In this document: in pieces, positions 26,592 to 58,599 of the stretch
Position numbering within the stretch: position 1 is the first letter of the stretch
Layout: each line of letters begins with the position of its first letter
From: Ptychodera flava
Lineage: Eukaryota > Hemichordata > Enteropneusta > Ptychoderidae
Reading direction: 5' to 3'
NCBI RefSeq assembly: GCF_041260155.1
Contig: NC_091931.1
Location: forward strand, 45,519,578-45,583,577
Length of the DNA stretch: 64,000 nucleotides
Made by a program: the position numbers and the translations under genes
Notes under the pieces: model-generated
The model's input: the letters and a program-made list of their open reading frames with translations, nothing else
The model's database searches: none
What the model was told of the DNA's origin: nothing

Positions 26592-27601
26592 GGGAGCGTT
26601 CAGTTTTTACGGCCTGGGGGGGCGGCAAAATCTTGTCGCCGGTGTTCAAAAAAATATAGACCCCCCCTGCATTTTTTGTGAAAAAAAGATGACCCCCCTT
26701 TGTCAGACGAAAAAAATTGATGCCCCCCCCTGAAAAATAACCAAAACCCATATGTCAAATTTACCCGCATGGTTTGGATTTGAACTCCGGTACGCGGCGC
26801 ACTTTATTCGTGTAGCAGAGATGCCAGTGCACAAACTTCTCAGCCACATCCATTGAAACATCTGTTAATTAGGACGACTGTAAGGCAATTTTTAACTTCA
26901 TTTCCAGAGACAACTCATGTCCATGGACATTGTATAAAGTAAACTTTATTGGAGTGGTTCGCCAAAGGCAGCCCTCCGGTTAAGAGGGTCATGGGCCATT
27001 ACGCAAAGTCAACTTTATTCTAGTGGGCCACCAAAGGTGGCACGCCGGTAAAGAGGGTCGATCATGGCTATCGCATAAAGTAGACTTTACTGGACAGGGC
27101 CGCTGAAGGCGCGCGGCCATTACCATTATTCAATGCGTGATCCCAGGGGTCCCTCAAAAATGTTTCTAATACAAGCCGCGGCTTCAATTGGGAATTTCAT
27201 GGTAAGATTGCCGTGGGGTATTACATAAAGTCAATTTATTGTAGTAGGCCGCCGCAGGCGGCCCGCCGGTAAAGAGGGTCAATCATGGCCATTGCATGAA
27301 GTAAACCTAATTGGAGTGGGCCACCAAAGGCGTCTGCCCATTAAGAGGGTCATGGGTAATACATAATGTATATTTATTGTAGTGGGCCGCCAAAGGCGGC
27401 CTGCCGGTAAAGAGGGTCGATCATGGCCATGGCATAAAGTGAACTTTATTGTTGGTATTATGTTTTTGAAAATGTGGTGACCCCCCTTTCCTACCAGTGA
27501 AAAAGCGATGACCCCCCCCCCCTTTGCGGATTCCAAAATTACGATGACCCCCCCCCCCCCTGGATTTTGCCGGCCCCCCGCCGTAAAAACTGAACGGTCC
27601 C
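26592..27601. mobile_element. Non-autonomous TIR element, G/C-run group, copy 1
   Basis: Ends are inverted: left GGGAGCGTTCAGTTTTTACG, right the complement with one change (CGTAAAAACTGAACGGTCCC). TTA flanks both ends (26589-26591 and 27602-27604), a 3-bp target duplication like that of PIF/Harbinger elements. Inside each end are several units of the form GATGACCCCCC plus an A-rich stretch, with C runs of 6-13 on the plus strand at both ends. The middle (about 26,935-27,450) holds a tandem repeat of about 65-70 bp containing AAAGTnnACTTTATTG and GGGCCGCCnnAGGCGG. No coding capacity seen. Confidence 0.85.
26935..27450. repeat. Tandem repeat, unit about 65-70 bp, inside TIR element 1
   Basis: About six to seven diverged copies of a unit that reads, in part, CATGGCCATNGCATAAAGT, then ACTTTATTG, then GTGGGCCGCCAAAGGCGG and CCGGTAAAGAGGGTC. 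Each unit contains a small hairpin in the GCCGCC/GGCGGC part. Confidence 0.8.
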
Positions 27602-27912
27602 TTATTTCGAGGATTTCAACTTCATTTTTAGCGATTTTGTCCCATGGCTATATACATATAAGCTTACATTGAATAGATGTTGTAGTATGTTACCTAAATA
27701 ATCGATGAACCAATTTCAATCAACTAATCAAAATTAAATGCATTCTTTTGCTTTTGTTCAATGTAACGTGAGACTCGTTGCTGTAAACTTAGGGACGATT
27801 TTCGTCGTCAATCATCCTATAAACACTGTATAAAAGAGATAAAACGACTTATTTTCGATTGTCTATTGTTACAACGACCGATGGGAATGATGACGTTACG
27901 ATCTGATGGCCT

Positions 27913-28289
27913 GCGATTGGTTTATCTGGCACAGTGGTCTACAGTGGTCTACAGTGCAGAAATGTTGACAAATCGCCAGACATAGCTCTGCCTCATTTTG
28001 AGAGATAACGATGCTACGCTGTAACTAGTCTTATCTCTATTTTCGACATAGACGCCCTTCTAACCCCGGAGGTAAGCACGAACAGAAGAGAAAATGCGTT
28101 TACTTTCAGTTTACTTCATTTCCATGCATCTCATCGCAGGGGAAGGAGTCAATCTGCCACTCGTGATCGTCACGTGGGAATATCCGAACGCTACTGATAA
28201 AGGTGAGCTATGTTTACTTCTATCAGTCAGTGTAAACGCACTCTCTTATCGATACGAACTGATGTTGCTGTATATAACGACCTTTCATG
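27913..28289 (+). repeat. Tandem duplication, copy 1: promoter plus AGA exon 1
   Basis: Starts GCGATTGGTTTATCTGGCAC. The next 377 bp recur almost unchanged at 28290-28677. It contains upstream DNA, ATG at 28094, the signal-peptide exon and its donor (GT at 28203). Confidence 0.93.
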
Positions 28290-56311: not shown

Positions 56312-56378
56312 ATATTATATATATATATATATATATATATATATATATACATACATATATATATACATATATATAATT
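56312..56378. repeat. (TA)n microsatellite
   Basis: TA repeats with CATA interruptions. Short GGTA and GACA repeats follow at about 56,435-56,475. Confidence 0.9.
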
Positions 56379-56971
56379 AAACGTCTATGTCTGTCTTTAT
56401 ATATTTGCATAAATTTAAAAATATAGACAGAGGATAGGTAGGTAGGTAGGTAGGTCGGTAGACAGACAGACAGAGGTGATCAGTGTCACATGACATATTA
56501 TCTGTCGTCTTCATTGAAATTTCTGGCAAACTAATTTGGAATTGATCAATTCAGCTTCTCATCAAATCAATTTCACCTATTCATCGGTCGATTATATTAT
56601 GTCTATTTTTAAAATGTCACACATAATAAAAGGTTAAACATTCGAGCTGGGTAAATAGCGCTGATAGTGGACCGCATTGTTGGATATCACTTGAATATTG
56701 TTGTTGTCGATAAGCAGTTTTTTAATTAGATAAAGTAAACAAACCGTCATGTTCCATCCTCAAAGATTAAATTCTTTCTGTGCCGCTATTTACGCACGTA
56801 AAGTCGCGTTTAACACCTTGAAAGATCGTTCTCTTACTCATGTGATGCCGTAAGAGAGAGTACTCGAGACTTGGCGAGACCCAAGAGGCTTTTCCATTCC
56901 AAAGCTCTTTGCTTGTCGGAGTGAGATCTGAAAAGCAGTAACTGTGTAACATCCGGTATTTGTTTTCCTAA

Positions 56972-58599
56972 GGCCGCGTTCAAAAAAATTGGTATGGGGG
57001 CGAATCGCGATTGAAATCTTATTTTTTTCAGATCCCCCCCCTCAATACCCTCAAAAATTTTCAAGTTCCCACCTCAATACCCTTCAAAAATTTTCAAATG
57101 GAATTTTAAAATGGAATTACCATATAGCCGCATATTTATTAGGAATGCACGCAGAGTAAAAATAAAAATGTAATGTGTCGTTCTGCATGCAGATGTTCAA
57201 CACTACCTCTTATCAGCAGGTTGTATAGCCATATACCTAGGGCAAGTTCTTAAATTGATTCATTTTTAAATGCATCAGTGGACTTTTTGGATTTCTCAGT
57301 CTAAGCCGACTTGAGTTTATCCAACTCTGGCCAGGTCAATGGCACCAGCTGAAAAGCACACAAAATGACAATCATGAGAGAGTATGAAAATTGTGTATTC
57401 CTGGCTACGTTTAACCAAATTGTGAAAAAATGAGCACAGTGACCTACCGAATTTTTTTTAAAGCACAAGACACATACCGGTATACAACTTAGATGCCACT
57501 TATAAATGTCTTACAAAATTGACAATACTGGAAGGTTAAAATATTCCATGAAATTAATTGTTTTAATCTCAGAAATTCTGGGTGTAATAATGGCAAATTT
57601 GATAAAATATAAACGATTCCATTTCGTTCCACATTTTTTTTACTGTTCAAAGTTTTACTTTTTGTATTTTTGTACAATGAGATGTGAAAATTCATTCACT
57701 GCATAAACTTGAAATGAATGGTTTTATATATTGATTTTAAGTGATTGTAGAAGAACTGACTTTTCATCGTACATTTGTATAAGATCAATTATGGTGACCC
57801 CATTTTTTTTCTCTAATATTTCATTGTTCTCATATGCCAGAATTCAAAACTCCATGGTAACTGTTAGTCGCCTAGTCTTCTATGTGTTGCTCTCTGGCTG
57901 GATCTTTTGTACAATTAGATGTATGTTTCACTGTCTATTGAGTGTCCTATGACCGAAACTTTTCTCAACTACATCAGAGTCAGAGCTACATGTATCACTA
58001 TCACTGCCAGTATGTAGTAGCAGGGCAGTAGTTGTATTAACTTTTTATTTTAACAATATTTTTGTTCAGTTTATACAATTGCGTTCTTGTTCTACTCCCT
58101 ACAGCATGTTGAGCTGTCCAGTATTCAGCTTGCCAACACAGCCTACGTGTTCCGTGCATTTGTATCATTAAATCATCACCAATATTTAGACAAATGGGCT
58201 TTGTTGACAAACTGAATATTGTGTTTTTCAGCATGCTGTAGAGAGACACCAAGAAACTGTGTTTGATACATTGCATAGAAATATTGAAAAATTATCAACA
58301 GTTGCAGCTCCTGCCCCATTACAAGGCCAACTTGTTTTACGAAAATTTAATGGCATTCATACATTTTCAGATTTTTTCGTAAATAAAGACATAGAATGCG
58401 ACAAAACGGTTCTGGGTTTTGTTTAATTATTACTAACATTCGAACCATTGGACGACATCAAAATGTTGGTAGTCAAAATATTTCCAGACCCCCCTATAGG
58501 CAGGGCAAACTTTCAAGTACCCCCCTCAACTACCCCAAAAATTTTCGAATCCCCCTGAATTCCTCCAGCCCCCCCCCCACCATTTTTTTGAACGCGGCC
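56972..58599. mobile_element. Non-autonomous TIR element, G/C-run group, copy 5
   Basis: Left GGCCGCGTTCAAAAAAATTG then GTATGGGGG; right CCCCACCATTTTTTTGAACG then CGGCC, inverted with few changes. TAA flanks both ends (56969-56971 and 58600-58602), a 3-bp target duplication. C-run units alternating with CAAAAATTTTC (for example AGTACCCCCCTCAACTACCC) lie at both ends on the plus strand. The 1.4-kb middle is AT-rich with no clear open frame. Confidence 0.85.

Follow-up and report, generated by a model that had tools for sequence, protein, structure and literature searches.

Same-direction arrays of C-run units beside both ends of five candidate PIF/Harbinger-type elements in Ptychodera flava

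The machinery of PIF/Harbinger transposons consists of a DDE transposase and a Myb/SANT protein (PMC9710019, PMC4482050; these and all papers below are cited from the sections available). Their terminal inverted repeats (TIRs) are mostly shorter than 60 bp and usually have A or G as the first nucleotide (PMC4482050), and PIF-like tips take the form G(N)5GTT (PMC2213677). Harbinger3_DR has a Myb-like protein that binds a 9-bp motif in the subterminal region, and the 2022 paper cited for this states that the mechanism of end recognition and pairing in the superfamily is not thoroughly characterised (PMC9710019). In piggyBat, unlike left and right ends (LE and RE) are needed together, and donors with LE/LE or RE/RE gave no transposition (PMC11707139). 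Here we describe five elements (E1-E5) in one 64-kb window, the 64,000 nucleotides of Ptychodera flava contig NC_091931.1 from position 45,519,578 to 45,583,577 of the forward strand, numbered below from its first letter. Inside their TIRs, at both ends, they carry arrays of units with C-runs that point in the same direction. An earlier note on this DNA had placed five TIR elements of 1.0-1.6 kb at these sites, and we confirmed their ends and TIRs with the corrections given below.

E1: 26592-27601, 1010 bp, plus strand; target-site duplication (TSD) TTA/TTA; TIR GGGA(G/C)CGTTCAGTTTTTACGGC...; tips 17/18; 41-bp TIR alignment at 90%
E2: 29361-30764, 1404 bp, minus strand by its units; right tip GGGACTGGTCAGTTTC followed by TAA; left tip damaged; 36-bp TIR alignment at 89%
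E3: 40540-41703, 1164 bp, plus strand; TIR GGGAGCCGTCATTATTTACGGCCTGGGGGTCGG; flanks AAA/TAA; 37-bp TIR alignment at 92%
E4: 48510-50015, 1506 bp, minus strand by its units; TIR GGCTGCATTCACAAACATCTCT; flanks TTA/TAG, TSD not conserved; composite interior
E5: 56972-58599, 1628 bp, plus strand; TSD TAA/TAA; TIR GGCCGCGTTCAAAAAAAT; tips 18/18

Arrays of one direction at both ends

The arrays are listed below, with left and right referring to the plus strand. Minus-strand units appear as G-runs.

E1 left array: 26651-26730, plus strand; three units, C-run starts 26661, 26693 and 26723
E1 right array: 27469-27560, plus strand; C-run starts 27481, 27512 and 27548; direction as in the left array
E2 left-end array: 29397-29495, minus strand; three G-runs, 29397, 29434 and 29466
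E2 right-end array: 30615-30706, minus strand; three G-runs, 30615, 30653 and 30685; same strand as the other end
E3 left array: 40598-40682, plus strand; C-runs 40608, 40645 and 40677
E3 right array: 41584-41660, plus strand; C-runs 41594, 41625 and 41655
E4 left-end array: 48559-48650, minus strand; G-runs 48559/48565; short-run units 48594 and 48626 picked by position
E4 right-end array: 49886-49972, minus strand; G-runs 49886 and 49947; short-run unit 49917 picked by position
E5 left array: 57024-57099, plus strand; C-run 57034; short-run unit 57068 picked by position; third unit not seen
E5 right array: 58479-58555, plus strand; C-runs 58489, 58520 and 58551

The window contains 55 G/C runs of 5 or more, and 37 of them lie inside the elements, which together span 6,712 bp (10.5% of the window). 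These 37 comprise 26 subterminal runs, eight in TIRs and three central ones. All 26 subterminal runs lie on a single strand within their element, which bears out the claim of the earlier note that run-bearing units near both ends leave one strand G-rich. The note had also held that the units are not part of the inverted repeat. We matched the two ends of each element after removal of 30 bp of TIR, using 1000 run-preserving shuffles and 1000 control segment pairs outside the elements. Direct scores for E1-E5 were 58, 102, 62, 44 and 69, with inverted scores of 22, 18, 27, 22 and 21; the direct score was reached by 0, 0, 0, 17 and 0 per 1000 shuffles, respectively. Only 0.3% of the control pairs reached 58, and the inverted scores do not exceed the control median of 27. 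At the ends of E2, 30616-30706 matches 29397-29487 with 78% identity in direct orientation. With the TIR removed the ends therefore match directly and not inverted, and the shuffle counts make the same-direction claim firm for E1, E2, E3 and E5, and weak for E4. We conclude that the array feature is real and regular, and well supported in these four elements. Two further C-run clusters, at 44987 and 61579, show no unit array when read by eye.

Two sets of units were compared. The 25-unit set, used for the permutation test of identity, drops the second adjacent run at 48559 in E4, while the 29-unit set, used for geometry, for the profile and for identity within and between ends, adds four short-run units (three in E4, one in E5) whose positions are partly circular because they were picked by position. 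The layout common to the ends is a TIR followed by up to three units of about 32 bp. Units with runs of 5 or more number three at each end of E1, E2 and E3, and three at one end and one at the other in E5; in E4 such runs fall at one unit position at one end and at two at the other. In unit orientation, C-runs start 62-75, 96-105 and 125-138 bp from the upstream tip (the last in four elements) and 109-120, 78-89 and 46-59 bp from the other tip; distances in E2 are counted from its damaged tip and are about 8 bp shorter than with an intact one. Adjacent pairs of 5+ runs (n = 14) have a start spacing of 30-37 bp, and the gap between the two runs of a pair measures 24-27 bp in all but one of the 14 pairs, where it is 31. 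Run length (5-13) varies more than this gap, a pattern that slippage on a fixed unit would produce. Since the start-to-start spacing varies, strict helical phasing (31.5 bp, or three turns) is not claimed.

The units are also related in sequence. The runs are preceded by an A/T-rich stretch (0.77, compared to 0.60 for runs outside the elements), and the junction triplet is TGA or TAA in 13/26 subterminal runs against 1/18 runs outside. Unit identity across elements is 0.349, compared to 0.292 +/- 0.014 when columns are permuted per element (0/5000; 25 units). A leave-one-out unit profile separates the units from runs outside the elements with an area under the curve (AUC) of 0.89 for E1, 0.93 for E2, 0.85 for E3 and 0.86 for E5. 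In the 29-unit set, identity is 0.470 between the ends of one element, 0.476 within an array and 0.334 between elements, and, between elements, pairs at matching positions (0.331) are no more alike than other pairs. Element by element, the between-ends and within-array values are 0.51/0.52 in E1, 0.65/0.65 in E2, 0.42/0.41 in E3 and 0.47/0.47 in E5. This likeness from end to end fits equally well with a single protein reading all the units, with homogenisation between direct repeats, or with a recent origin from a single array.

Element ends and classification

The ends of E1 and E5 are the best defined. We combed the window for GG...CC pairs flanked by TWA and found six at 11/18 or better: E1 at 17/18, E5 at 18/18 and four others at 11/18. 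As the same scan of simulated windows (n = 20) gave a maximum of 14/18, a chance origin of the E1 and E5 ends is rejected. An exact 3-bp TWA duplication is present in these two of the five elements, TTA in E1 and TAA in E5, as the earlier note had described; its suggestion of PIF/Harbinger is further supported by G(N)5GTT at both ends of each. This motif is not found in E4 (ATT), at the right end of E2 or in E3. The target of NuwaII (PHIS), C|TNA|G (PMC4482050), is ruled out by the contexts T|TTA|T in E1 and C|TAA|A in E5. PIF/Harbinger membership of E1 and E5 is supported, and that of E2, E3 and E4 we infer.

TIR lengths range from about 18 to 41 bp over the five elements, with a G-run inside the TIR in 4/5. 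The E4 arm is 24 bp (48508-48531, 21/24) and takes in two flanking bases per side. The first base is G in 8/10 tips, the exceptions being the E4 right tip (T) and the lost E2 left tip. Termini beginning GGGA had been attributed to E1, E2 and E3; this holds with the right end of E2 (GGGACTGGTCAG), not with its left end, which lacks GGGA. The sequence given for these three termini also required correction, since E1 has GTTCA and not GTCA, and E3 has GTCATTATTTACGG. E1 and E3 have TTTACGGCCTGGGGG in common, with TTTCTTCGGCCTGGGGG as the E2 counterpart, and the right tip and TIR of E2 resemble those of E1. GG(N)3CGTTCA is common to E1 and E5. The E4 left tip (GGCTGCATTCA) differs from both E5 tips (GGCCGCGTTCA) at two positions, by C to T and by G to A, each lying within a CpG in E5, and the E4 right tip has diverged further. 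E4 is the weakest member of the group.

Two further features concern the ends of E2 and the interior of E4:

E2 left junction: 29351-29360, plus strand; TAAACGTCGG in place of the terminal GGGACTGG; second copy immediately past the right tip, at 30765-30774
Solo right end of a sixth related element, inside E4: 49743-49880, plus strand; C-runs of 4 or more at 49743, 49813, 49830 and 49854

At the left end of E2 the first eight bases are gone and TAAACGTCGG precedes TCAG. GGT is common to the junction and the element, from which we read the change as probable microhomology-type damage after insertion. Replacement of the left tip by a copy of the right flank looks like the outcome of aberrant repair. 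The solo end inside E4 has the tip GGGACTGGACAAAAATTCC (reverse complement), whose first 8 nt are identical to the E2 right tip, and its C-runs lie on the strand opposite to E4's own units.

The earlier note had proposed a possible group of miniature inverted-repeat transposable elements (MITEs), a term that implies high copy number, homogeneous copies and no coding capacity. Of the 68 open frames of at least 45 aa within the elements, 10 were scanned, and none gave a Pfam match above the cut-off. A homogeneous family did not emerge: by blastn the interiors of different elements are unrelated, save for one 42-bp match between E4 and E5. This indicates separate families with a common end plan and not five copies of one MITE. 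The proposal of a single group is favoured by the shared unit positions and by the unit identity across elements, and E4 departs from it in the leave-one-out profile. Segments that match their own reverse complement occur at 40781-40940 in E3 (79%), 48826-48889 in E4 (84%) and 58084-58255 in E5 (69%), and are possibly nested foldback elements.

Pattern scans for copies elsewhere returned no stretches from viral contigs and none, then four, from genome contigs. We judged these four to be chance matches, because about seven are expected (an estimate) for an 18-base pattern in 257 billion bases on both strands. In the 220 bases beside each match, three had no further run of 5+ and one had a single run. 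Among the literature matches listed, the text available does not mention C-run arrays of one direction for any Harbinger element, with Repbase, Dfam and Repbase Reports outside the search.

Proposed function and competing explanations

We propose that these are non-autonomous cut-and-paste elements of PIF/Harbinger type whose arrays would bind a transposition protein in one polarity, leaving the two ends non-equivalent, a reading that we hold to be about evenly balanced. The units would be recognition sites for a protein provided in trans, for which the Myb/SANT protein encoded by an autonomous Harbinger is the likeliest candidate, and the TIR would be read by the transposase complex. Since the TIRs are inverted and the arrays direct, the array faces the interior at one end and the flank at the other, so that the ends differ. 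By analogy with piggyBat only, synapsis might then favour a left end with a right end. The likeness of units between the ends of E1, E2, E3 and E5 would fit one protein reading all of them. We put forward as doubtful a more specific version, in which a polar-end PIF/Harbinger lineage has a fixed set of 3+3 same-direction sites for a single protein, which would render the two ends distinguishable in spite of their near-perfect inverted repeats and enforce left-right pairing; interiors and TIRs would turn over while array geometry is conserved and the units at both ends co-evolve.

Several observations weigh against the proposed function. Agreement of direction in 5/5 elements has a chance probability of 1/32 if directions are random. 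The TSD is inexact in E2 (TAA on the right only), E3 (AAA/TAA) and E4 (TTA/TAG). Between-element unit identity is low (0.334, against 0.267 for random 18-mers; 29 units). The profile from the other four elements misses the units of E4 (AUC 0.55), which are hardly alike among themselves (0.30 between ends and 0.33 within arrays, near the random 0.27). An autonomous partner was not found within the 64-kb window. mPing and mPong have no specific promoting internal sequence in common (PMC9921582), so that subterminal motifs are not general in the superfamily. Finally, the piggyBat authors warn that subterminal repeats can inhibit rather than be necessary (PMC11707139), and by analogy the arrays described here might restrain transposition instead of helping it.

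The strongest rival is a split minisatellite, which we consider unlikely, though a real possibility: an ancestral TIR pair enclosed one tandem array, which a new interior then split, and the common direction is a relic that plays no part in polarity. Splitting one array yields the same direction at both ends automatically, and the explanation accommodates units that are as alike between ends as within an array and that show no positional orthology between elements. There is also a precedent in the tandem repeats of Medicago MtPH-A6-4, which in extreme cases nearly fill the region between the TIRs (PMC2213677). Random splits would not be expected to leave arrays of at most three units so similarly placed relative to the tips in elements with unrelated interiors, although an ancestral split could account for it.

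Two other explanations carry less weight. We regard it as improbable that the arrays act as DNA structure and not as protein sites, either as formers of G-quadruplexes or i-motifs or as nucleosome-excluding pairs of A-tract and G-tract. The runs reach 13 G, those upstream stretches are A/T-rich, and G4Hunter windows of at least 1.2 occur at or close to each end of every element, apart from the E4 right array, whose nearest such window falls in the solo end. The earlier note had raised G-quadruplexes as one possibility; as the common feature we reject them, because prediction gave no canonical G3N1-7 motif in any array. The window contains just two such motifs, one within the solo end in E4 (49813-49833) and the other outside the elements (61579-61595). 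Allowing loops up to 12 adds one motif spanning the left TIR run and first unit of E2 (29376-29407) and one in the E3 interior (41317-41357). Adjacent 5+ runs, 24-31 bp apart, would impose long loops, and a purely structural role would not call for the shared sequence that is seen upstream of them. Runs of 11-13 G might still give rise to weaker or intermolecular structures. Also improbable, in our assessment, is that the five are not one group, with E2, E3 and E4 belonging to other superfamilies, perhaps with longer duplications. This would draw on the 10-bp repeat TAAACGTCGG flanking E2, AACTTAG near both ends of E3 and the lack of a conserved TSD in E4. The E2 repeat, which starts with TAA, is best explained as damage, since the right end retains GGGACTGG; the resemblances of E2 and E3 to E1 at their termini, and of the E4 left tip to E5 (two CpG-type transitions), likewise tie these elements to the other two.

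If the arrays are recognition sites, a positioned, directional array in diverged families would be a concrete candidate for what the transposition machinery reads, and it would allow a straightforward test for polarity of cut-and-paste ends in PIF/Harbinger. The array layout could also help to spot related elements whose TIRs have diverged too far.

Genomic surroundings and comparison with known systems

The window contains many microsatellites and two kinesin-motor exons on the minus strand (5674-6054 and 16612-17103, Pfam PF00225), which are probably KIF3A-like. A tRNA-Glu (TTC) lies at 25678-25750 (ARAGORN; as a tRNA by Rfam), and no other RNA gene was found in the window at Rfam gathering scores. 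Between E1 and E2 there is a 300-nt direct repeat of 99% identity (27913-28212 and 28290-28589, 377 bp from start to start). Two 86-nt inverted arms with 95% complementarity, 649 bp apart (32121-32941), make up a possible further TIR element. Minus-strand frames at 60538-61595 presumably represent a remnant of a LINE reverse transcriptase; the two of these frames that were scanned gave no Pfam match.

Among described systems, mPing and the Tourist-like non-autonomous PIF/Harbinger elements are alike in having TIRs, a TWA duplication (as in E1 and E5) and no transposase gene found. The elements described here differ from mPing in their length of 1.0-1.6 kb and in their subterminal arrays of C-run units. 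Medicago truncatula MtPH-A6-4 resembles E1 and E5 in its G(N)5GTT tips, and has a TAA/TTA duplication and subterminal tandem repeats; its units are 60 bp long and in opposite orientation where they occur at both ends, whereas those reported here are about 32 bp and in the same orientation (PMC2213677). Zebrafish Harbinger3_DR has a subterminal motif read by its own Myb-like protein (PMC9710019), a role that the present units may share; its motif is 9 bp long. Finally, piggyBac and piggyBat belong to another superfamily with another transposase, and have non-equivalent left and right ends with subterminal motifs (PMC11707139); the likeness to E1-E5 would lie in the proposed working principle only.

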